From Owenia fusiformis (lineage: Eukaryota; Annelida; Polychaeta; Sabellida; Oweniidae), in the NCBI GenBank assembly GCA_903813345.2, contig CAIIXF020000003.1, forward strand, positions 26,117,248-26,181,247: a DNA stretch of 64,000 nucleotides, written 5' to 3'. Shown here one piece after another: positions 3,817-42,200 of the stretch. Position numbers and translations under genes: made by a program. The notes under the pieces are model-generated. The model was not told where the DNA came from. It saw only the letters and a list, made by a program, of their open reading frames with translations, and did not search any database. Position 1 is the stretch's first letter. The number at the start of each line of letters is the position of its first letter.

Positions 3817-3828
3817 GTAAGTAATATG

Positions 3829-4276
3829 TTCAAAGCACCAAATCATGGTTGTCACATGTTCAAACCACCAAATCATGGTTGTCACATGTTCAAACCACCA
3901 AATTATGGTTGTCACATGTTCAAAGCACCAAATCATGGTTGTCACATGTTCAAAGCACCAAATCATGGTTGTCACATGTTCAAACCACCAAATCATGGTT
4001 GTCACATGTTCAAACCACCAAATTATGGTTGTCACATGTTCAAAGCACCAAATCATGGTTGTCACATGTTCAAAGCACCAAATCATGGTTGTCACATGTT
4101 CAAACCACCAAATCATGGTTGTCACATGTTCAAACCACCAAATTATGGTTGTCACATGTTCAAAGCACCAAATCATGGTTGTCACATGTTCAAACCACCA
4201 AATCATGGTTGTCACATGTTCAAACCACCAAATCATGGTTGTCACATTTTCAAACCACCAAATTATGGTTGTCACA
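3829..4276. repeat. 30-bp minisatellite, 15 units, with 120-bp higher-order period
   Basis: Fifteen head-to-tail copies of a 30-bp unit (TTCAAACCACCAAATCATGG followed by TTGTCACATG). Two variable positions, G/C in YCACCA and C/T in AATYAT, cycle in a four-unit pattern, giving a 120-bp higher-order repeat. The unit is a multiple of three without stop codons, so all three + frames and one - frame are open for about 440 bp or more. It begins 12 bp after a strong GTAAGT donor, so it is intronic and the open frames are a by-product. Confidence 0.95.
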
Positions 4277-5023
4277 AGTATTCTTATAAAACTGAAATGA
4301 TGCGAAAAAGATTGGAAGTGACAGATAGTAGAATGTAGAAGAATACATATAGTTAAAGTGGCAACAAAGGCATCATAGTCAAGTAGAGAGTAACTTTCTA
4401 AAATATTTTGCAATTTTACAATATTTTCTTGCTTACAACATTTCATCCCATGCCTATGCAATAAGTCCAACTTTTCAGATTTTATTTCGAGGCAATGCTT
4501 TAAGCGATATGAATATGATGAATCAAGAATGCTTTTTGAAAGATTGTTTGCAACTTTTGACCATCTCTGCACGTTGCTGTACAGTCCCATGTTATCAAAT
4601 TTAATTGTCACTGAAATATTAAAGCTTCAAGTCATGCAATAATGGAGATTTGAAGCATAAACATGAGCCATTTATAAATGCGTTTGTTATTTTTATTAGC
4701 AGATCACCTCAACCTCAGGCTATGTTCTGTTGGCTTTGCATGTACACTGTAGATGTATAGACTGTAACCAGCAATTATATACAATTGTATCCAATTTGAA
4801 AATTGAACTTTGGATTATTTTTCTATAATGCACATCGCTATATCTGAGAATTCAGTGTATATCGGTTTAGAAGGGGTGCATAAATACGGTACCCTATATT
4901 CTAGGCTGAGGTGACATCTATTATTTCAAACAAAGTCTTTTTATGCAATCTATAATTCTAAAGTCATATTTGTAACTTTAGAAAATATTTAGGACAACAT
5001 TATATTTCTGTTTTTAATTCCAG

Positions 5024-24200: not shown

Positions 24201-27200
24201 TGCGAAAGTTTGATTGCATTTCGATCGCCGGGATTTTACAAACGTATTGTTTAAGTAGCGATCGTGTTCTTGGGATCTTGATAACTTCCTATTTTAAGTT
24301 TTGGGTTGAAAGCAATGAGTATGTCGGACTTTCTCAAGTCCACATAATGAAACAATAACCCTTTATATTAGTCCAATCGGAATTTGCATAAGCATACCAG
24401 TTTCATATTGCAAAAAGAACTGTAATTAATAGCCTACATAAAAGCATCATGATAAATAAAACATTAAAGCATATATAAAGCCTATTGTTATCGCACCCCC
24501 CCCCCCTCCTGGCTACGCCTATGGATATTTTGGCAACTTTCACGTTTACCCCGCCCCCTAATAATTCTTGCGCCCCCTCTAAATATCAGACCCGTCAGGC
24601 GTTGAGGCATGGATCAGGATACCCTGACTCCCAAGCTGTGCGACTTCTGGCAACCGCTACACCTATATTCCCGGGGAAAACGCTTTTAGAAAAATTGTCA
24701 AATATGGTCGTGTGTGGGCAAACACGGAGGAGGAGGAGAGGGGTGCGTGCATTGTGTGCGACCCTTCATCAGTTGTGTACCTTATGTTTTGTATGAATTT
24801 CTTCCGAATAGTTATGCTAGAGGGGTTCTGATATTTATTTCTGTTTTCAAATGAAATAATTTCACCCTTGCCCGACTGACTTGTAGATAATGCACGAATC
24901 AAATAGCATGGAGATCAGATAATCAGGTTGATTCGTATTTTCGCAATCAGATGAATTAACTTATTGTTTTCTCTGATTAAAAAGCGGTTTGGAGCTACTT
25001 TTACAGGATTTGTAAATTCGCAATCAGACTGGCTTATTTTAATATTTAGTCAGTGAAAGAGGACACTAACTGAATAATTTATCACAATTGTTAAATAAGC
25101 AAACAGGAACAGGTTTAAAAATGAGAATAGAGGCAAAAAAGTCTATACATAAAATGTAATTAAAACCCGGGAATTAAAAGCAATTTTAGACTGTTAGATG
25201 ATCTCTTCTGTAATCAAGGTGATGTTGGTACACTTCCGCCGTTAGAAAAACAAAGACTAAGACAAAGACTATATAGCAATTAATCCTTTTGTAATCATTA
25301 AATGTTAGATTCTTATTATTTTGTTGGACAATGTTCAGACTTCTGACCAAGATTAAATCAATAATGTTTGTATTTATAAAAATAGTATTTCAATCAGACA
25401 GACGTTCTAATGAGTTAGAAAAATACACTTGTCCATTTCCTCTCAAGAAGTTTTCAAAGGTAATCAAGTCGATTTGTTTGAGTGTTTAGCATTGTTTTTC
25501 ATAACTTGAGGCTTCCATGAACAGAATGACTTTGAAATGAGTTTTTATAATTTTAGCTTTTATACGGACATGCTTATTGTATATTTCTATATGAACGTTG
25601 TGGTTATGTGATGTAACATCGCCCCCCCCCCAAATTACAGGTATACAAATTTTGGTCGGAATGCATTAACTTGCAATTAAAGGAATTTTAGACTGTTAGA
25701 TGATCTCTTATGTAATCTAGGTGATGTTGGTACACTTCCGCATTTAAGAAAACAAAGAATAAAACAAAGAGAACCAAGCAATTAATCCTTTTGTTATCAT
25801 TAAATGTTAGATTCTTATTTTTTTTATTGGACAATATAAAGACTTCTGTCTCCGATTGTTATGCAGGTATGTGTATAAAATCATGTGAACAACATTATCG
25901 TGGAAACTCCCATATTCATTCTCATAATGTCTTACAGCTATTTCGCAAATGACATAATCCTAAACAACATATGGACATAATATTGCAGAACTGAGCGAAA
26001 AGAAAGGTGGAACAAATCAGAAATGCACAAAGGGCAACAGTTGAAGAACAAAAGTTAAAGGCGTTGTGAAATAGATCGTGCTTTTATATGATCCCCTTCT
26101 ATAGTGCCCTACCCTTTGCATTTGTTCGACTTCACTTCTTAAATGAGAGTTTTGTCTTCTTGTAGTTTATAATTAGACTCTGCACGCAGCGTAATAGTGC
26201 CCCTATTATCCATGTTCATGTTCTCATTCGATTTTTCATCAGTTATGACTTAGTAACATTTGCTCCGATTTTCATTACGGCGCCCGGCCGATTGAGTATT
26301 TTGTTCAGAATTGAATACAATTTTGAACAAAATACTCATCGGCCGGGGGCCGGTGCTGAAAATCTGAGCAAATGTGACCACGGCATTATAAAAGCATACT
26401 CTTTAATACACGAACAGATTCAAAATGAGACTTTATCTATCAGAGAAATAAAAATGGAAAATTTGTATTATGAAAATATTAACTGATGCATTGTTTAGTA
26501 TTAAATATTAAGTTTTACAGTCGGAAACCTCAAGGGGCGGGAAATAATTTGATTAAACAAAACGCCGGATTAATATGTGGACAACTTGCAAATGAAATGT
26601 AAGTAACATGACAGAACGAGTATGTACGCCCAATAAATACTTTTATAGTTTTAATGTGCATTCAAAGGACCCCATTTGTAAAATTGATAGAAATGAATAG
26701 TTTTACTACCGGAAAAAACTGAGAAATATATACCCGATTCGACAGAATAGTCATCATCATATCAGTGCGAAAAATTAGCTATATTTATTTTCTATGCGAT
26801 ATACACCTGATATTGATAGCCTTCCACGATCATGGTCCGTTGACATCATCAACCTTGTGATTTGCCATAAGTGATTAACCAACATTTTTTGATTAAAAGT
26901 CGGGGTTGACGTTTCTTGACTTTTCACACTGACATCAAAACAAAACATAATTTGAAAATAAAAGGCATAAAATGGCCATTAAAAGTGCATTTTTGAACAA
27001 AAGTATCAACTTATATTACACTGCACGCAAATACAAAGTGAAAAGAACGTCTTCCCGGAGATTGAAATACGGATCGGTAAGTCAACAAATCTATCTGTTA
27101 AATAAACAAGCTTAGCCTATGTCTGCGATTGTTTGTCTGAGTGGCCAGATGTTATCCGTTTCGGATAATAAATTTCTAAATATCAGACCCGTCAGGCGTT

Positions 27201-30200
27201 GAGGCATGGATCAGGATACCCTGACTCCCAAGCTGTGCGACTTCTGGCAACCGCTACACCTATATTCCCGGGGAAAACGCTTTTAGAAAAATTGTCAAAT
27301 ATGGTCGTGTGTGGGCAAACACGGAGGAGGAGGAGAGGGGTGCGTGCATTGTGTGCGACCCTTCATCAGTTGTGTACCTTATGTTTTGTATGAATTTCTT
27401 CCGAATAGTTATGCTAGAGGGGTTCTGATATTTATTTCTGTTTTCAAATGAAATAATTTCACCCTTGCCCGACTGACTTGTAGATAATGCACGAATCAAA
27501 TAGCATGGAGATCAGATAATCAGGTTGATTCGTATTTTCGCAATCAGATGAATTAACTTATTGTTTTCTCTGATTAAAAAGCGGTTTGGAGCTACTTTTA
27601 CAGGATTTGTAAATTCGCAATCAGACTGGCTTATTTTAATATTTAGTCAGTGAAAGAGGACACTAACTGAATAATTTATCACAATTGTTAAATAAGCAAA
27701 CAGGAACAGGTTTAAAAATGAGAATAGAGGCAAAAAAGTCTATACATAAAATGTAATTAAAACCCGGGAATTAAAAGCAATTTTAGACTGTTAGATGATC
27801 TCTTCTGTAATCAAGGTGATGTTGGTACACTTCCGCCGTTAGAAAAACAAAGACTAAGACAAAGACTATATAGCAATTAATCCTTTTGTAATCATTAAAT
27901 GTTAGATTCTTATTATTTTGTTGGACAATGTTCAGACTTCTGACCAAGATTAAATCAATAATGTTTGTATTTATAAAAATAGTATTTCAATCAGACAGAC
28001 GTTCTAATGAGTTAGAAAAATACACTTGTCCATTTCCTCTCAAGAAGTTTTCAAAGGTAATCAAGTCGATTTGTTTGAGTGTTTAGCATTGTTTTTCATA
28101 ACTTGAGGCTTCCATGAACAGAATGACTTTGAAATGAGTTTTTATAATTTTAGCTTTTATACGGACATGCTTATTGTATATTTCTATATGAACGTTGTGG
28201 TTATGTGATGTAACATCGCCCCCCCCCCAAATTACAGGTATACAAATTTTGGTCGGAATGCATTAACTTGCAATTAAAGGAATTTTAGACTGTTAGATGA
28301 TCTCTTATGTAATCTAGGTGATGTTGGTACACTTCCGCATTTAAGAAAACAAAGAATAAAACAAAGAGAACCAAGCAATTAATCCTTTTGTTATCATTAA
28401 ATGTTAGATTCTTATTTTTTTTATTGGACAATATAAAGACTTCTGTCTCCGATTGTTATGCAGGTATGTGTATAAAATCATGTGAACAACATTATCGTGG
28501 AAACTCCCATATTCATTCTCATAATGTCTTACAGCTATTTCGCAAATGACATAATCCTAAACAACATATGGACATAATATTGCAGAACTGAGCGAAAAGA
28601 AAGGTGGAACAAATCAGAAATGCACAAAGGGCAACAGTTGAAGAACAAAAGTTAAAGGCGTTGTGAAATAGATCGTGCTTTTATATGATCCCCTTCTATA
28701 GTGCCCTACCCTTTGCATTTGTTCGACTTCACTTCTTAAATGAGAGTTTTGTCTTCTTGTAGTTTATAATTAGACTCTGCACGCAGCGTAATAGTGCCCC
28801 TATTATCCATGTTCATGTTCTCATTCGATTTTTCATCAGTTATGACTTAGTAACATTTGCTCCGATTTTCATTACGGCGCCCGGCCGATTGAGTATTTTG
28901 TTCAGAATTGAATACAATTTTGAACAAAATACTCATCGGCCGGGGGCCGGTGCTGAAAATCTGAGCAAATGTGACCACGGCATTATAAAAGCATACTCTT
29001 TAATACACGAACAGATTCAAAATGAGACTTTATCTATCAGAGAAATAAAAATGGAAAATTTGTATTATGAAAATATTAACTGATGCATTGTTTAGTATTA
29101 AATATTAAGTTTTACAGTCGGAAACCTCAAGGGGCGGGAAATAATTTGATTAAACAAAACGCCGGATTAATATGTGGACAACTTGCAAATGAAATGTAAG
29201 TAACATGACAGAACGAGTATGTACGCCCAATAAATACTTTTATAGTTTTAATGTGCATTCAAAGGACCCCATTTGTAAAATTGATAGAAATGAATAGTTT
29301 TACTACCGGAAAAAACTGAGAAATATATACCCGATTCGACAGAATAGTCATCATCATATCAGTGCGAAAAATTAGCTATATTTATTTTCTATGCGATATA
29401 CACCTGATATTGATAGCCTTCCACGATCATGGTCCGTTGACATCATCAACCTTGTGATTTGCCATAAGTGATTAACCAACATTTTTTGATTAAAAGTCGG
29501 GGTTGACGTTTCTTGACTTTTCACACTGACATCAAAACAAAACATAATTTGAAAATAAAAGGCATAAAATGGCCATTAAAAGTGCATTTTTGAACAAAAG
29601 TATCAACTTATATTACACTGCACGCAAATACAAAGTGAAAAGAACGTCTTCCCGGAGATTGAAATACGGATCGGTAAGTCAACAAATCTATCTGTTAAAT
29701 AAACAAGCTTAGCCTATGTCTGCGATTGTTTGTCTGAGTGGCCAGATGTTATCCGTTTCGGATAATAAATTTCTGAGAATACTACTGATATCTAGAATAC
29801 ATCTTCCGTGATATTTTTCATAAAACTACCCTTTGCATTCGTTTGACTTCACTTCTTAAAAGAGAGCTTCGTCTTAGTGTAGTTTAACCAGACTCTTCAC
29901 GCAGGGTATCATAAAACAGGCATCTTAGCTGCAATTTTGAATAATAGCGTAATTCATAGCACAATATAAATTAACCCGCCTCTGTTTAATTCAAATATGC
30001 ATTACCCTTAAGATTTATATACTTAGACACCTTTTCATTCTTGATTCGAATTTTTATCTTGTCTTCATCTAAATTTGTGGATTAATAACAGTTTTTAGTA
30101 TACAAGTTGAACATACAAAATGTAGCGTATTGATTACACGTAACAGTGGCGTAGCCAGCTTTCAATCGGGGGAGGGGGGGGGGGGGGGGTGGTGGGGTGC

Positions 30201-33200
30201 GATCGTGGCATAAAAAAATGTTTTTGAAGATTTGTTTTGAATTTTACAAAAATTGGTGCAACTTCGTTCAAAATCGAGCTAGAAGCTTCAAATAAAAAGC
30301 ATTTTAAGACTTTTTTCTTCTATCTAATGGTTCTATTTTCATTGGTTATGGAGGGGGGAGGTGCGATCGCACACATCACATCCCCTGGCTACGCCTATGC
30401 GCTATATTAATATAACAAGGTTATCATATCATGCCAATAGTTAGATGGTTAACTAATATTAACACAAAATAATAATACACGATAATTAAAAAAATAAACC
30501 TCGGTATTCGGGCCTAAAATCCAAGGATACGTGTACCATTACTTAAGTGTAAGCTGCAATACCATATCGAATACCTGTACCATTACTCAATAATAAGCAC
30601 TAGTAAGACCATAATAACAAGCTTAATAACTAGCTTATCGCAAGTTATTCCATACGATTTTGTCTTGTGTATTCCCTATATCAAATCCCTCCCGGTGAAT
30701 AATTTCTTTTTATCATACTTGAAGGCGTTGTGATGTCTACAAGAGGAAACAATAACAGATAAAAATGAAGGCACAACCATCCATATATCAAACTAGATAT
30801 TGAACTATACATCAAGATAATCATACACAATGGCTGATAGCTCTTGTATTGTAAAAATGTTGTAAATGATATGATTTGTACAAGGTTTTGTGTGTCACAA
30901 TCCAGAATTGAATTTGACGTTAGCAATGCCAAACAATGGAGTTGACATACATTACAACATGTGTAATGGCAGAGTCATGTTATTCACTAACATCTGGCCA
31001 ATATTTAAAGCTGTTATATTTCGCGTTTTATAATTTGTGCGTATTTCGTTTATTTCCACTTTTTCAAAATTTTGTTTCCACTGATTTTCGATGATTTGAC
31101 TATTTTCTAAAAATACAGTTTGGTACAGTTTTGCAATGAATAATTTTATGAATTAAATATATAAATTAGTGGACACAATAATATCTATATGGAAGTGTTT
31201 TAAAATATAAATTATAGTTTGAAATTTGTACGGCTATTACATTTTATGAATTTTCGAAAATCCGTGAAAAGCGAAAATTAACCAGATCACAATAACCTCG
31301 TATGAATAAACTTTGATCATGTTTTGCACTCATTTTTAACATTGGTTTTTAAAGACTGCGTGATATAATATGAGGCACTCTAGAGTCATCTGAACAGGGT
31401 CAGAACATGTCAAAGACAATATAACAGTGATAACCCCAGATTCAATGCTCTTTATAATTGCGAAGAAGCAACAGCAATAAATCGTTTCAGTTTTCGTTGT
31501 TTTGAAAAACAGAAAAATGGATCATCACATAGATAAACATTAAAAGTGCATGTAGTAAGATGTAGCATTATATGCCAATTGTATCTCACCAAATAGGTCA
31601 CATTTTCTTCCTTGCGAGAAATGTTCAAATATGTGAGATGTAATTATTGCAAGAGTGTATTGTATCTATTAGCATAATTAGCTAAATTAAATTCACTATT
31701 TAATTATTGCAAGAGTGCATTGTATCTATATTATTAGCATAATTAGCTGAATTAAATTCACTATTTAATTATTGCAAGAGTGTATTCTATTTATATCATA
31801 AGCATAATTAGCTGAATGAAATTTACTATTTAATTATTACAAGAGTGCATTGTATCTATATTATTAGCATAATTAGCTGAATTAAATTCACTATTTAATT
31901 ATTGCAAGAGTGTATTGTATCTATATTATAAGCATAATTAGCTGAATTAAATTCACTATTTTATTATTACAAGAGTGCATTGTATCTATATTATTAGCAT
32001 AATTAGCTGAATTAAATTCACTATTTAATTATTGCAAGAGTGCATTGTATCTATATTATAAGCATAATTAGCTGAATGAAATTTACTTAGTCTATTTAAT
32101 TATTGCAAGAGTGTATTGTATCTATTAGCATAATTAGCTGAATTAAATTCACTATTTAATTTTTGCGAGAGTGTATTGTATCTATTAGCATAATTAGCTG
32201 AATTAAATTCACTATTTTATTTTTGCAAGAGTGTATTGTATCTATTAGCATAATTAGCTGAATTAAATTCACTATTTAATCGTTGCAAGAGTGTATTGTA
32301 TCTATTAATTAGCTGTATTAGCTGAATTAAATTCACTATTTAATTATTGCAAGAGTGTATTGTATCTATTAGCATAATAAGCTGAATTAAATTCAATATT
32401 TTATTTTTACAAATTCCCTATTTAATTATTGCAAGAGTGCATCGTATCTATATAAGCATAATTAGCTGAGTGACGTATTAATTGTTTATTTTAGGATCTT
32501 AAGAGCATGCTTTGAAACATACGAATATTCAAACTAATCAAATATTAAACAACTTATTGTTCATATTTGCAGCATACGGACAGGCGCTGGAATCAAGATG
32601 TCCCAAGGGCTATTTGAATTGGGGCAGATTCTGCTACTATTTCTCAGATACTGCTTATACTTTTGATGAATCGAGAGCTGTGTGCAAGAATAGAGGGGCA
32701 GATCTTCTCAGTATGAACAATATGCAAGAATTTGTAAGTCGAATGCTGATAGTTTCTAATTCTATACGATCATAGCATTTCTATACGATTTAAAAGTTCT
32801 GATGGAAGTCTAGGGGTTTCCAAACATTTAGAGTTGAGTCTTACTTGGGTTGGGTAGACTTTGGTTGGGTAGACTGATCTAATACACCCGAGTGAATATA
32901 TTTAAAGAGATTTGTAGAATCATTTGACAAGATGATCTATTTTTTATTATCAAATACGATTACTACCATTCAATAGATTTTAACCTTTGTTTTCTATAGC
33001 ATTGTACAAATATGATAGTTTTAACATTATTGCAGGAGCATAATAAGTGTCAAAATTCAATGTGATCGTCAAGGGTACTCTCCCACAGTCTTATCTCCTT
33101 GCTTTATAGATTCATTTAGAATTAGAAAAATTACTGAATTGCTCTCATGCAATTGACCTCTCACAACATATTTGTCCTTTAAGTGTTCATTTTGAAAAAT

Positions 33201-36200
33201 ATAGAGTATGTCAATTAGTATCAGATCTGCAATGATACAAAAACACGAATAAAGTTGATAGACAGGATAATTATGAATTCATTTGTATTCTCATTTGGAC
33301 TGCGATTGGATATGATTTGTCCAAGAGACGAAATTCTTTACAACTAGTTTCTTCAGAACTTTTGAGGTCTAGAGAATTGGAAATATATTTTCATTCATCA
33401 AAATATACAGGGTTTTCATAAAGTATCTTTACACTTTAGACGTAGACTTTGTGTACTTGTAATTGTAAACATATACTTTTTGGACACCCTGTATTATCCT
33501 GACCTTTTTCAATTCAATTTATTTATTATATAATTCTTATATTATATAGGCTGCACTATAATGTTTTTTTCTTGGACAGCATTTTCTAGTGCATTAAATT
33601 ATGATTCGGGATGCTGTGGATCTTTCTTTTTGTCACTGTTTTGTAATGCTAACATAGATATTCGCTAATTCACACGGTAAAATTTTACAATCAAGGACAT
33701 AATACTACAGTTGATTATCTTGTTTCGTTGTCTTGTATTTTATCGACTTGATATTTTATTGACTTGCCTACCTGTCGTACTGTGTATTTGTCGATTAATA
33801 TTATCTACCACATCCTTTAGTATCACGCGTTAAAGACTTTTAAGAGACAATCGGATTAAATTAAATAGAGTTATACACATTTGCACACAGTGCTGTGAAT
33901 CAGCTTGTGTCACCCGTGTCTTTTTCGAATTGTTAAGTATACCACATTGATTTTGAAATTTCAATACCAAGTATTTTTACTTTTCTCGACCTCGTTGTTA
34001 AGTGTTTTTTGTTAAAATTGGTGTTTCCAGAGATTTATACAAGATGAAGTAAAAAGAAGACGATTGGAATTTTGGGTTGGAGCGACTGATTTACCCAAGA
34101 AGGACAAAAAGTACAAATGGGTCGATAGGTCAAGATGGGACCCAAATGTCGCGTAAGTTTATTTTATTAAACACAAATTCAGCTTAGGTTTATATCAAGT
34201 ATAGCTACCAATTTCTTTTCATCTCGCATGAAGGGTATAACTTATAATTTATGATAAGCAAATAAAAGGGAGTAGGAACTTGATTCAAGACAAATACATT
34301 ACAAGTAAAACAAGAAATTTTGTTCTAAAAATCTCGTAAAAACGTGAAAACTAGATGTACGTGAAATTAAAGTGTTTTACAGTAGCATTATCAATAAGAA
34401 ATACGTTCACTTGTCCAATATGATTACTTACTACATTTGTACCACCATTGTGATGTATTTAGTTAGAAAATGCCTAACTATTTGACATTTTAAATTATTT
34501 GATTTATTTTGTTAATCCTATCATTGTGTTTCTGTATTTATCTTTCAAAATTAAGCTTCTGATTTCACACGCACATCCAAATATATACCTGTCCAGCATA
34601 TTACACGCAGTCTGCTAAACATTTATAGAAAATGCAATGCTATCAATTCACACATAGATAGGCAATGTGTGTCAAACCATCAATTCACTCATAGATAGGC
34701 AATGTGTGTCAAACCATCAATTCACACATAGATAGGCAATGTGTGCCAAACCATCAATTCACACATAGCTAGGCAATGTGTGTCAAACCATCAATTCACA
34801 CATAATGTAGATAGGCAATGTGTGTCAAACCATCAATTCACACATAGATAGGCAATGTGTGTCAAACCATCAATTCACACATAGATAGGCAATGTGTGTC
34901 AAATCTGAGCTAAGCAGAACACAACATCTCAAATGATGTGTTTTCTTGAAATAATTCACCAAACTCCTGGGCTATTTATTTTAGTGATTTGGGATTCTAT
35001 TTTTAGATTACATCAATTTCATAATTTTAAGTACTATCTGTTCGTCTGGCACTGGATGGATTTCAAAATGACACGCCTAACTGCATCTTTTTTTCCTTTT
35101 AAAAATTATTTAGTGTTGTGTGAAAAGGGGTCTTAAGTACTGATCTCAGTGCTTTGCTTGTAAAATATATAACTCGTTAATTGTCTGATCTTTCCTGATA
35201 TCTCATAATTTTGTCTTGCTTAAAACCGACTTACCTATGTATCGATATGATCATGAAGGATATTCAAACATAACTTAGCTTCACATTTCTTCTCACAGCT
35301 TATTGCGGGCTTGTGACTTTTTGATTGTTTCAGATTAAAATAGTTTGTAAAATGCTATCAGTTGTATGCTATATCTTTTTAATTGTTTTTCATGATTTTC
35401 AAAAGGGGTTGAGTTTGTGACAAATCATGATTAAATGACCTTAAATTTTAACTTATTTTAATAAGTTTAGTTTATGGATAACGAAATAAACCACGCCTGC
35501 CTAACCTTATATAGAGTTTGGCGTGACTTGTTTGACATGTTGTGGTTGCACACGGATGCACACGTATTATTAGAGCTATATTTGTAAAGTTCTTTCTTCT
35601 TTCAAATGTAACCAAGCTGAATACACGTTGGTCTACATTTGTAATTCAAGTATCCACCGCCATCCCCATCCTCATCACCTTCATTGAATTTTGCTAGTAC
35701 GTTTTGGCATAGTTTGTTTTCAAGGTGCAATTATTCGTTTCAACTCATTCTTCCCCAACTGCAATTCATTACATTTTAATGATAGTGCAGCTGGTTCAAG
35801 ATAAACCAGTTCATAGTATTCAATTATGTAAATATATATCGCTTTCTATGTACATAATTGTCTCCAATTCCAAACAATCATGTTCGCAACGCGACTTATC
35901 TAGCTGATAAGACAGGTACACTCTACGGTTTACCGTCATGATTGTTTGAAAGTGAATTAGGTTTACTTGGGCTGTTTCCCGACAATCACGGTCCCGCAGG
36001 GCCACAGTTCCGCAGAGCTGGCTGGAGGACCCCGCGCATGGTCTCAACTCTAGCACCGATTGTCTCCTAAGTTAATACCACTTAATGACTTATGCATATA
36101 CGCAATTGCGTCACAACGGTGACTTCGCTATCATTTTTCAATGAACATTCTTTTGAGGCATAGGGAATAAAGCCAATTAATAGTTGATTGTATATATTTG

Positions 36201-39200
36201 GATGCAGAATTAAATATATTCATATTTTCTTGTTTCTAATTGATTGTTTTGTTGTTAGACATAAACACGTCAGTATGTATGGATCAAATTTATGCAAAGT
36301 GAATGAAGAACCCAATTGGATAGTGTGAAGAGATCATACAGACAAAAAAAGTTATGCAACATTATTTGGGTGTTATTTTGTGTCGCCTTGTATAAAAGAT
36401 ATGACAGTCTAACGTCCCCCTTTGAAATCATAAATAAACTAAGTGTATAATCTCATTGAATGAGAATCTGAAGGAGGTAAAATAAACGCTCCAGAACGTT
36501 TAAAGTAAATTAGTTTGAAATTAATTTCGAATTGTATAACATGTCCCCGATTCAAATTACGTATAGCAAGGCGATGTGGGCCAAGGGTCAACCAGACGGT
36601 AACAGAGGGAAAGAACACTGTGCACATTTCTGGAATAAACCAACCGGATCAGTGAACGACCGACCGTGTAATAGCAGACTACGATTCATCTGTAAACGGC
36701 GAAATGGTAAACATATGGGGAATGTGTATTTTGTATCAGTTGCCATTATTAGTATCGGTCATAATTTTGCACATATCCTGCACTTCCTGTTATCTATATG
36801 GGCTCAAAAGTCAATTTTATGAGGTCTAGTGTTTTATCTTAACATTCATTCTTAAAACTTCTTGTTTTATGAATATTTTACACAATCATGTTGTATTTTA
36901 TAAGTTAGAAATGTTTGGAGCTGTTAAGGACGTAAGGCCTCTCAAATGACTTTTTGGACCACACTCTGTAGTAATTCCACTGCTGAATGAGCACTGTCAC
37001 TTATAAAAAAACCTTACACAACACCAACACTAGGCAGAACGAAATCAATGTTATTTGTTTGAAGATTTCATTCTTTCATAAGGCATCCTAACACTTATTG
37101 CGTTTGTACAGCAAAGCTGCCTGGGCGAAAGGTCAGCCAGATGGACATAAAGGAAAACAGAACTGTGCTAAATTTTGGAATAATCCACCAGGCTCATGGG
37201 ATGATGCTGGATGTGGGGGTCGAGTGAGATTTATTTGCAAGCGAAGAAATGGTAAAATTTTACTAATTCAAACACTTGTTGTATCTCACTCTAATAATAG
37301 TATAAGACTAGTTGTTATTAGTTATCAGCAATCAACTAGTATTACATACCAATTTGCTTTTAGGTTTAAGAACATCTCATTGTAGTGCACGACCATATCA
37401 ACACCATTTTATTACAATTCATGAAAGTCCTATAGCATACATCTCCATTTATGGATAAAAAAGTTCCTTCAGCTTGCGCATTGCTTAGATAAAAAGCAAA
37501 CTCATGCTTTTATTGTTACTGTAACTAGACAAGACTTGACAAGACTATCACTTTCGCCACTTTTAGCACTCTGACAGTCATTGTGATTTGTTATACAGTA
37601 AAGCAGCCTGGGCAAAAAACCAGCCAGATGGGCTCAGAGGGCACCAGAATTGTGCTAAATTTTGGAATCGTCCACCGGGTTCATGGGATGATGTAGAGTG
37701 TGGACGCCGTGTGAGATTTATATGCAAGCGAAGAAATGGTAAAACTTAGAACCACTGTTCACGCAAAATCTTTTGAAGCTCTCGGCACTCAATTCTTTTA
37801 CATACATTTTTAAAAGCTTGATACCTTACCTGAAGTTCCAAATCTACATTTTGCACCAGGTTTTTCATTGAATACAATCACACTCTCAAACTTTAAATTA
37901 TACTACTCAGTAGCTATAAACTAATGATATTACATGCTACGGTAACTGGTCAACTCGTACCCAAGACAAGTCGTACCCAAGACAACTGGTACCCAAGACA
38001 ACTCGTACCCAAGTATATATTTTGGACTGGGAATGTGAATAGATATACATATTATAATTGTAACATACTGTTCAGAATAGTTTAAAGTTTGAAGAAGAAT
38101 TTTCGGAAGAAATTGATTTAATTTTGTGACATTTTGAGCTGAGTGTCAATTTATATTGACTATTATTTTATATTGGTCACAGATTCAGGATGTTCGAGTG
38201 AAGAGACATATGTTTATTCCACATATTCATAATCATTTTTCAAAATATTGTATGTTTATGAGTGTTTGGAACAAGTGTCAGATCTAATGTTGTAATTATA
38301 TTTATTTGTATATATGTTTGACAAAAAATGTTGTGAACAAGCGCTTCAAGCACTTCTTTCATTTAATAAAAAAATGCTTTACTGATCCATTGAGAAAAAA
38401 TGTCGTCTAAATTCAAAAAAATATTGAGGCTTATTTGATTCACATTACAACCTGAAAGCATTACAAACTCAATTTTTTCCCCAATGTGTACCCTTGTCTT
38501 GGGTACCAGTTGTCTTGGGTACGAGTTGACTAGGAAGCCATGCTACGATTGCTTCAAAATAGAATCACTGTATGTGATCACTTTCTAGCGTTCACCTAAA
38601 AATGGTTTTCCAAATACCTAGCCTTCCACTTGAACTGTAGATGCAAATCAACAATTCCAGCATCATTTTCGTTAGTTAGTCAGATCAAACATTCTTGCAC
38701 ATACAAATATACTAATAATGAATTATTTATTGACCTGCTATCATTGTGTCTAAATAATTTTTTTGCCTTCATATATTATTAAGTTGTGTCATATATCTGT
38801 ATTTATATACTACCGTTGTTGAAAATTATCAATTCACATCAACTTTCTCGAGATTTCGATCAAACTCTTCATATACACTCCCCTCCATAAGTTTTGCAAC
38901 CTTTTCCCCCATTGAACTACGTGTTAAAGCCTCTTTACGTTTGGTTAACATGGGAATGTCGATTTTCAAAACGTCATCAAATTTATCATCAATTTTCGAC
39001 CTATTGTAATTGAGGAAAAAAATTGGGAAAATTTGGAGGTATTGGAATTAAAGTCAAATTACGTTTCCATCAATAGTATAAGTATTTTCATCGCAGGTTA
39101 AGTAAATAAAAATTCAAAGGTAAAGAGGCTTTAACACGTAGTTCAATGGGGGAAAAAAGGTAAATGAAATGCCATTTTCTGATTCTTACAAAATCGTTTC

Positions 39201-42200
39201 TTATAGCGATAAATATAGTTACAGATCTATTAGTCAGATGCAAATGATAGTATGTTTTCTTCTAAATAAATAAATTGATATGTTATGGTTTGTTTTTCGA
39301 GTCGGATTTTGTAAATTACTTTTCGTATGACATTCCCTTTATGGCAGTCGAACTGGCATATAACTGCTTGATTAAGAAAAAAATGTAATTTATCATATAT
39401 ATCTCTCTTAAAATATTTATCATCTTCGTAATATGCCATTTTATTCACAAAGTCAATATTCAAAAATATTGGTGTATTGTTATTACAGATTATATAGACA
39501 AATGCGACTTGGATGCAGGTTACCATAGTTTCAGTAACCAATGTTTTAAATACAACGAAGAACCACAAACATGGACTGATGCACAGGCTACTTGTGAAGT
39601 AAGTGTTGCGAATAAAATTACATCTCTATCAATGTGAGTTCTTTAAATGAATCTCCTTATTTATTAAATTTATATAATGAATTAATTCTCATACGGAAAA
39701 TACATTATTTTATTAAATATATTTAAGATATAATGTACCATACCATAATATTAACACATTTGTATGATTATTCAGGCAGATGGAGCACAGCTCATTGTTG
39801 TCGATAAACCAGAAAAACTCAACTATCTCGCTGACACGATCACGTGTTCAGATTCCAGAGCAAACGTCTGGTTGGGCCTCTCCGATACGGTACATATACT
39901 TATAGTGATATATTGTAATAGTATATTCTTTAACATAAAACACTTTTTATTCAACATGTCAAAATGAGAAGCTCTAAGCTTCATTTTAGGTGTCCTTTCC
40001 AAATTAAACTACCATCAGATAGCACTATCCTTGATTTGTATTCATTTAATCTGATAATATAAGTATTATATACTTCAGTTATGTACTAGTATAATTAATA
40101 TAATATAATATAATATAATATGATATAATATACAAGCTTGTTTCATTTTATTCCAGCTTGTGCCAGGAACGCTGATTTGGGTAGATGCTTCTCCAGTTGT
40201 GATAAAGAAATGGGACAGCAACCAACCAGCTATGTTGTAAGTAGATAGTCCCAGGCATATATAAATACAGTCGACGAGTACATTTTGAATTTTAGTCTGA
40301 TTAATGTATGTAACAGTAAATACAATCGATGTACTTGCATGTTGTTTTAGTATAAAACATCAAACCATTAGGAATTACAGGGCGTTCATAAAGTTCTTGC
40401 AAAAGTGCTCTTTAAAGTTTTTGTATCTCAGTCAATCTGGCCGTAATTTTCACTCAGTATACCTACACTATTCATACATTGAAATCCGAAGTTATAATCA
40501 ATAGCTCCTTGAGGAAAAAAAGTTATGGTTCCTATAGTCACATGCGTCATGGGTAAGCGGAGCAGGCAAAAAAGGATCTGTTTTATTTGAATGTTCAAAA
40601 TGTTTTTAACTTGTCCTATTTACTTTAATAACGGTATCTCAAGAGTGTAATGTATTCAATATAGTGTCCATCATGGTCTATACACCTCTGCTGTCTTACT
40701 TACCATTTCTCAAACAGACAGGGGAACCCATTTGGAAAATTTATTGCGATTGATCTTTGTATGGGTGGCTTTCATCAACATCATCTGATCCTCATTGGAT
40801 TTCGTTCTTGGACGGCCTGATCTAGCATTGTCCTTACCATTTGTTCTACTATCAGTAAATGTCTTAGTCCATTTTGTAAATGGTTCTTTTGGCCATAGCC
40901 TCCTTCCCCTACACCTTATGAATGTCTTCAAGTGTTTGTTTTCTTGAATTTCCCAGTAAAACATACACCCCGATGCTACTGAATATTTGTAATAGCAAAT
41001 TATCATATTTTGCTGTTTTTGCAGCCATTTTCACAAAAATAAAATTGGCGCTGCCTTTCACAAAGGCCGATGTCATCAACCAATATAGGTCACTTTGATA
41101 CCATCAGTGATGTCATGAATCAAAGAAGTTTCAACTATGATGTCATCATATGATATCATCTAGGGTTGACATGGCAGCATTAGCTTGTTTTGTATTTTCC
41201 AGGATACTTTAAAGTATGTTAAAATTACCTCTTACCCATATCTTTTATCTATTTTTTCTTTTTTTCAATGCTGCTCCGCCTACCCCTGACTCGTGTTACT
41301 ATAACAATCATAACTTTTTTTCTTCAAGGATCCGTTCATTATAATTCAAGATTCAAATGTATGAATAGTGTAGGTATACTAAGTGACAATTTCAGCCAGA
41401 TTGATTGAGAAACAAAAAAATTAGAGTACTTTTGCAAGAACTTTATGTATGTGAAAATTATTAACCGAATGATGTATGGATCGTTATTTGATACGATTGC
41501 TTTATTGTTCCTAAAATTTTGTATAATTGTTCAACATAGTTAAGTTATTATTTTGCAAAACTTAATCAAATCATAATTACTGACTAATACTGTAATGTAA
41601 ATGTATTTTTTAGGACACCGGGTAGTACTTGTGTTGAATCAGTTCCACAGGCAGGTCATAAGTGGAGAACGCAACCATGTGAAGCTGAACGCAAATTCAT
41701 CTGCCAGAAACCACAAGGTATTTGAGTTACATAAACAACCAGTAGGGTTTTCTTATAGATCAGGTCATTTTAGGATGTTGGGGTATGTTCCACTTTGACT
41801 TTTGATTGTATTATTTACGTTTCTTTTCAATATGTGTGCTTTTAACATATTGTTGTCCTTACATTTTTCCACTTGACAGCACGTACATGCCCATTGATGA
41901 AATATAATTCAAAATACCTGTCTGATTTAAGGTTGTAGATTCGAATCCTGTGTGCTCCAAGTCTTTGGTCATTTACTAATAAACACATTGCTGCGTGTGT
42001 GGCATGACACGCATATCTGCTTAACCATATTACAAAAACAAGACAAATCGCATTACAACTGAAGAAAGTAACTATATAAAATAAATGAAATTATTTATCA
42101 GGCAAGTGTAAAGCAGGCTGGGTGGAAAAACTTGACCAATGCTATCAGATCAACTCGCGGCGAGACACCTGGAAAACATGGAGCGATGCAGATGAGTACT

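Follow-up and report, generated by a model that had tools for sequence, protein, structure and literature searches.

The lectin gene and its three putative alternative exons

The window analyzed here, a 64,000-nucleotide stretch of contig CAIIXF020000003.1 (positions 26,117,248 to 26,181,247) from the annelid Owenia fusiformis, carries on its plus strand a predicted C-type lectin gene in which the C-terminal part of the first C-type lectin-like domain (CTLD1) is encoded three times in tandem. The domain begins with an exon at 32573-32733 (161 bp, translation ending NNMQEF), which has AG/GT edges and joins in open frame to a single-copy second exon at 34031-34152 (122 bp) that ends in phase 2. 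After an intron of 2,414 bp (34153-36566) come alternative exon 1 (36567-36706), alternative exon 2 (37112-37251) and alternative exon 3 (37599-37738), with introns of 405 and 347 bp between them, and an intron of 1,750 bp (37739-39488) then leads to the exon that starts CTLD2 (39489-39598, 110 bp, phase 1 acceptor). An earlier sequence-only reading had described the three exons as exactly 140 bp each, with a phase 2 acceptor and a phase 1 donor, and as encoding the same C-terminal part of CTLD1. The coordinates and the AG/GT edges bear out the former description, and the latter agrees with the joined translations: the two preceding exons followed by any one copy give an open protein, and all three versions match the Pfam Lectin_C profile (PF00059) at 60.9-67.8 bits against a cut-off of 22.6, over profile positions 2-107. 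The best sequence matches of CTLD1 among solved structures were the yolk-sac IgY receptor, mannose receptor 1, LY75, PLA2R and mannose receptor 2; the proteins used for the Pfam and structure comparisons were near-identical to the corrected ones, with two additional intron-derived residues (V and S).

The three copies each contribute 46 codons, open in the same phase, and are 60-81% identical in DNA; at the protein level copy 2 shares 67% identity with copy 1 and 83% with copy 3. Ungapped DNA similarity covers the exon together with 8 bases before and 9 bases after it and ends there, the introns have no detected common repeat, and a sensitive protein scan between 34153 and 39488 returned no fourth copy. 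We translated all eight inclusion patterns between 34031 and 39598. Each single-copy pattern was open (3/3), and every pattern with none, two or three copies reached a stop (5/5), as expected from the earlier proposal that one of three is the only productive choice. Adjacent internal exons of similar length and sequence, a shared reading frame and GT-AG splice sites, by which clusters of mutually exclusive exons (MXEs) are recognized (PMC5740500), are all present in the window array, as is the supporting feature, not universal among MXEs, that including copies together or leaving all of them out makes the frame non-productive.

Divergence among the copies was evaluated by the Nei-Gojobori method, which yields rough values for exons this short. 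Between copy 1 and copies 2 and 3 the proportion of synonymous differences (pS) was 0.92-1.01, and therefore saturated, with replacement differences at 20-26% of sites; copies 2 and 3 gave a synonymous rate (dS) of 0.90, a replacement rate (dN) of 0.11 and a dN/dS of 0.12, and dN over all window pairs ranged from 0.11 to 0.32. The synonymous excess was significant in each comparison (p = 3e-16 for copies 1 and 2, 9e-11 for copies 1 and 3, and 4e-6 for copies 2 and 3). Because synonymous changes far exceed replacement changes, all three copies have been retained as coding exons for a long time, under purifying selection. In a neutral, substitution-only simulation 10-14% of copies were stop-free, before unchanged length and splice sites were demanded.

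The copies differ at the putative binding face. The motifs named in the sequence-only reading were correct: QPD occurs in 3/3 copies, followed by GNRG, GHKG and GLRG in copies 1, 2 and 3, and the WND position reads VND in copy 1 and WDD in the other two. Copy 1 further has KEHC, with a glutamate two residues before the cysteine, where copies 2 and 3 have QNC. In the structures of mannose-binding protein and the mannose receptor, EPN or QPD, the glutamate two residues before the cysteine, and WND provide Ca2+ ligands. Copy 1 has the letters of the usual ligand set (QPD, E and ND), and copies 2 and 3 carry Q for E and D for N. If these roles hold in CTLD1, the E-to-Q and N-to-D replacements could cause ligand or Ca2+ affinity to differ among the copies. 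Taking the selection signal and the frame logic together with the sister-gene arrays described below, which likewise support the earlier suggestion of a mutually exclusive swap of the lectin binding face, we consider it likely, and hold with good confidence, that all three exons function, as mutually exclusive versions of the C-terminal half of CTLD1, the half with the long loop and the Ca2+/sugar site, in a large multi-domain C-type lectin.

Downstream of CTLD2, the plus strand encodes further CTLDs, a kringle, F5/8 type C domains and a WSC domain. Pfam confirmed hand-assembled examples of these (one kringle, one F5/8 type C domain, one WSC domain and two CTLDs, with CTLD2 as a Lectin_C match), and because they share strand and order, all of these domains would belong to one large gene, which may extend past the end of the window. 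The intron before the array contains 37-bp tandem repeats at 34618-34940. The intron after it contains inverted repeats pairing 37946-38013 with 38494-38534 (41 nt, 93%) and 38902-38943 with 39115-39156 (42 nt, 98%), which are perhaps, at a guess, the remains of small mobile elements. Farther upstream, seven open frames at about 24628-26978 recur with the same printed letters at about 27225-29575, at a spacing of 2,597 bases, and therefore a block of ~2.4 kb has been tandemly duplicated upstream of the lectin gene. A minisatellite at 3821-4297 has several frames open on both strands, with CHMFKPPNHG-type repeats.

Exon arrays in sister genes

A CTLD2 query of the O. fusiformis assembly (498 Mb, 525 contigs) returned 17 matches at E<=0.001, of which the top seven fall in six genes, namely the window gene and genes at C10:12.38, C1:54.88, C10:4.17, C10:9.52 and C4:13.14 Mb; the ten weaker matches (E 4e-6 and above) were excluded from the family. 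All six genes have the CTLD1 C-terminal exon with a common phase pattern and a length of 128-140 bp, and four of them have it singly, the sequence retrieved around it containing no second copy. Tandem CTLD exon arrays occur in three of the six genes and number four in total, all of them duplicating the C-terminal part of a CTLD: half of the domain in three arrays and two-thirds in the remaining one.

The closest parallel to the window array lies in the C10:9.52 Mb gene, where the same CTLD1 exon is present in three 128-bp copies with the same phases. Each of these has, by its letters, EPN, a glutamate two residues before the cysteine, and WND; single inclusion is open, and the other five patterns reach a stop, which the double inclusions do not meet until the end of the next exon, at a predicted junction. 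Synonymous excess is again pronounced (p = 4e-13, 6e-9 and 7e-6). The intron before this array contains 100-bp tandem repeats (L007, about 1560-2080) of a sequence unlike the 37-bp units in the window. A second array, assigned to a later CTLD of the same gene by its position (C10:9537232-9537370, 9537524-9537671 and 9538022-9538169; L020), consists of exons of 139, 148 and 148 bp with phase 0/1, and only single inclusion is open; copies 2 and 3 are close (synonymous excess p = 5e-6), and copy 1 is distant and has neither an EPN nor a WND motif. The fourth array, assigned by position to a later CTLD of the C10:4.2 Mb gene, is a pair of exons of 224 and 230 bp with phase 2/1 (C10:4210275-4210498 and 4210531-4210760; L017), between which lies a GT-AG intron of 32 nt. 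Either copy alone is open, joining both or retaining the intron gives a stop, and the synonymous excess is strong (p = 2e-11). The recurrence of one design in sister genes suggests that O. fusiformis varies its lectins by splicing.

Further arrays were sought by comparing each of the six genes with itself over 36-56 kb (28001-64000 in the window), using gene-strand open segments of >=25 residues at pair distances of <2.5 kb in three genes and <1.5 kb in the other three, a sensitivity that shorter or very divergent exons may escape. At that sensitivity no complete-exon array was seen in the exons for the first half of a CTLD or for kringle, F5/8 type C or WSC domains. Genome-wide, no further tight cluster held up in protein searches with the exons of each array, nor did any among the 150 of 565 candidates scored in a Lectin_C search; the lists from these searches are lower bounds. 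Several candidates were rejected. At C10:9548144/9548335 (9548000-9548430; L021) there is a recent ~191-bp partial tandem duplication of a CTLD end, whose upstream copy has, by eye, no donor, and at C4:13114281-13114751 part of an F5/8 type C exon is repeated four times in units of about 98-107 bp. At C1:32.37 Mb and in the last CTLD pair of the window, the two members are consecutive CTLDs separated by an exon for the first half of the domain, and the remaining closely spaced CTLD segments of low similarity were assumed to be consecutive CTLDs as well. Apart from lectins, the assembly contains three matches above cut-off to the erythrocruorin linker domain (PF16915), an annelid family, one of them with an internal stop, whereas COX1 gave no match in it.

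To place the two CTLD1 arrays relative to each other we built trees from twelve exons: the ten that encode this part of CTLD1 across the six genes, plus two related ones at C3:31.3 Mb. Support for a group of the C10:9.52 Mb copies is 77 (protein) and 67 (codon), and window copies 2 and 3 pair at 98-99. A shared ancestral array with the ordering (W1,C10a),((W2,W3),(C10b,C10c)), where W and C10 denote the window and C10:9.52 Mb copies, loses 27 log units in the protein analysis and 18 in the codon analysis, and the approximately unbiased (AU) test rejects it (p = 0.0091 protein, 0.0084 codon); the test covered this one ordering under the LG+G4 and HKY+G4 models, the best models by the Bayesian information criterion being WAG+G4 and TPM2+I+G4. 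Because the shared ordering is rejected, the two arrays probably arose separately, or else were homogenized by gene conversion.

Proposed splicing mechanism and rival explanations

If splicing follows the reading frames, each mature mRNA would take one copy, and on that pattern at least three proteins would be made, differing only in the CTLD1 face; the exon swap may in turn change ligand specificity. With three copies no wrong combination is open, so that the frame would silence faulty products, and transcripts with a skip, a double or a triple inclusion would be removed by nonsense-mediated decay (NMD). NMD can contribute to exclusive clusters unless the exons are multiples of three or the copies exceed three, and steric exclusion suits clusters of two exons (PMC6071210). 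The copy itself would be chosen by splice-site competition and trans-acting factors and not through a Dscam-like docking site. Steric exclusion in the window array is ruled out by its introns of 405 and 347 bp, which are long enough to splice, and U12 incompatibility was likewise dismissed, as by eye 0/11 array donors begin like a U12 donor and those of the window look U2-type. A putatively unspliceable intron is found only in the C10:4.21 Mb pair. A published survey treats a donor-to-branch-point distance of <50 bp as potential steric interference (PMC5740500); because the 32-nt intron is shorter than that limit, it is probably too short to splice and the two exons should be unable to join, and the pair is an apparent case of natural steric mutual exclusion in a sister gene. 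We thus infer exclusivity in transcripts from frame incompatibility and, in one array, from sterics.

A number of observations weigh against the interpretation we favor. As four of the six genes have the CTLD1 exon singly, an array is dispensable for the fold. The stretch from QPD to WND is not significantly enriched in variable residues (Fisher p = 0.12 for the window array and 0.91 for the C10:9.52 Mb array), copy 1 has a modest pyrimidine tract (9/17, the same as that of the 34031 exon), and the selection signal between copies 1 and 2 of the later C10:9.5 Mb array is weak (p = 0.019). Skipping both exons of the C10:4.21 Mb pair shifts the frame, and the next exon, 48 bases long, contains no stop in the shifted frame. 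Docking and selector complementarity in the window array does not rise above background, the observed score being reached by 32, 17, 27 and 32 of 40 shuffles. As to independent origin, support for the window copies as a group is weak (42 protein, 63 codon), and the inference draws on 49 aligned columns and could be mimicked by gene conversion.

The scan behind those shuffle counts (ungapped complementarity, 250-base selectors, one species, 40 shuffles) bears on a rival that concerns mechanism only, namely that competing RNA structures, a docking site pairing with selectors as in Dscam exon 6, enforce the exclusive choice. The sequence-only reading had drawn a parallel to Dscam and called for a search for paired docking and selector sequences. 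The parallel stands for the outcome, but the device did not stand out in the window, where none of the four comparisons gave a signal above shuffles and the upstream intron contained no common docking element above shuffles. The CTLD1 array at C10:9.52 Mb behaved similarly (28, 5, 36 and 22 of 40 shuffles), so that the two arrays are not outstanding in 8/8 comparisons, with 5/40 shuffles at or above the observed score in the nearest. Outside the exon, moreover, the window copies have only the 8-9 flanking bases in common. The rival draws some support from the later C10:9.5 Mb array (0, 15, 0 and 39 of 40 shuffles), in which one upstream region beat 40/40 shuffles in 2/4 comparisons, but we do not build on these two scores because both lie in a TATG simple repeat. 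We regard enforcement by RNA structure as improbable, while granting it some weight. A smaller chance goes to the notion that the alternatives are not strictly exclusive and that skipping or double inclusion serves as a regulated off-switch through NMD. In the window array and in both C10:9.5 Mb arrays a stop interrupts every skip, double and triple, as that idea would predict, and a human survey finds exon lengths that are not multiples of three in 60% of MXE clusters (PMC5740500); such a switch nevertheless leaves selection on three different protein versions unexplained, and fits as an addition to mutually exclusive choice and not as its replacement.

It is more doubtful still that one copy is constitutive and the other two are duplication relics, rarely or never spliced. 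Four of the six genes do manage with a single copy, but synonymous sites are saturated between copy 1 and the others while replacement differences amount to only 0.20-0.26 per site, every window pair departs from neutrality, and none of the three has lost its frame, its splice sites or its exact length, against the small fraction of simulated neutral copies (10-14%) that remained even stop-free. An assembly artefact or merged alleles would be a negligible prospect, given the 60-81% DNA identity of the copies, introns with no detected common repeat, and three further arrays on another contig.

Comparison with known recognition systems

Like the window array, the Dscam clusters of arthropods are tandem exons of similar length, used one at a time, that swap part of a recognition domain; Dscam cluster 6 has 48 copies (PMC6071210) compared with three in the window. 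Dscam differs in being an arthropod immunoglobulin protein with known docking/selector pairing, whereas the window array belongs to an annelid C-type lectin in which such pairing was not found by our scan. Drosophila PGRP-LC also resembles the window gene, in that exclusive splicing exchanges the binding part of a recognition receptor, but there the exchanged parts are peptidoglycan-recognition domains and not internal half-domain exons as in the lectin. The mutually exclusive variable regions of PGRP-LC are 3' (PMC9013439). The human MXE atlas describes adjacent internal exons of similar sequence, equal phase, lengths not divisible by three and GT-AG sites, as in the predicted arrays reported here, one of which, the C10:4.21 Mb pair, has an intron below 50 bp; the main text of the atlas has no word beginning with lectin (PMC5740500). 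Snail FREP and CREP lectins of the VIgL family are diversified invertebrate immune lectins, the CREPs having a C-type lectin part, and the available portion of one account describes no exclusive lectin-domain exon arrays, in contrast to the window gene (PMC12074976). The mannose receptor family (MRC1, MRC2, LY75, PLA2R and the IgY receptor) shares large size and many CTLDs with the window gene, in which the CTLDs are instead mixed with kringle, F5/8 type C and WSC domains. We know of no such exon arrays in the vertebrate members of that family.

A literature search that included annelid lectin splicing, and that left subscription journals mostly outside its reach, found no precedent for mutually exclusive exons in a C-type lectin, in keeping with the earlier statement that no such case has been described. 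Lectin words were absent from the main texts examined of published work on mutually exclusive or tandem exons. Among the accessible texts, a crab transcriptome reports one mutually exclusive event with the gene unnamed (PMC9021376), the spliced exons of PMC8551360 are those of CD45, PMC2685406 concerns Dscam, and a 2026 review of immune diversification names Dscam for the arthropods and mentions lectins, in the part available, only in other roles (PMC13428168). Exclusive exon arrays in recognition molecules are a known kind of system; what looks new, within the literature searched, is their presence in this protein family and lineage and their repeated origin.

Extending from the single locus to the family, we give roughly even odds to the broader proposal that this annelid has repeatedly made the exon for the binding half of a CTLD exclusive. 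On that proposal four arrays with eleven alternative exons in 3/6 genes would give these genes 3, 9 and 2 protein versions, respectively, and the family would be a counterpart of Dscam built on lectins, with one array locked by an unspliceable 32-nt intron and the others by frame. Recognition diversity made by splicing is known mainly from arthropod immunoglobulin receptors (PMC13428168). A developmental RNA series of fourteen samples exists for O. fusiformis (PMC9977687). If the proposal is true, splicing-based recognition diversity would be open to a very common animal fold for sugar recognition, and the variation of lectin specificity by splicing in an invertebrate would become testable.
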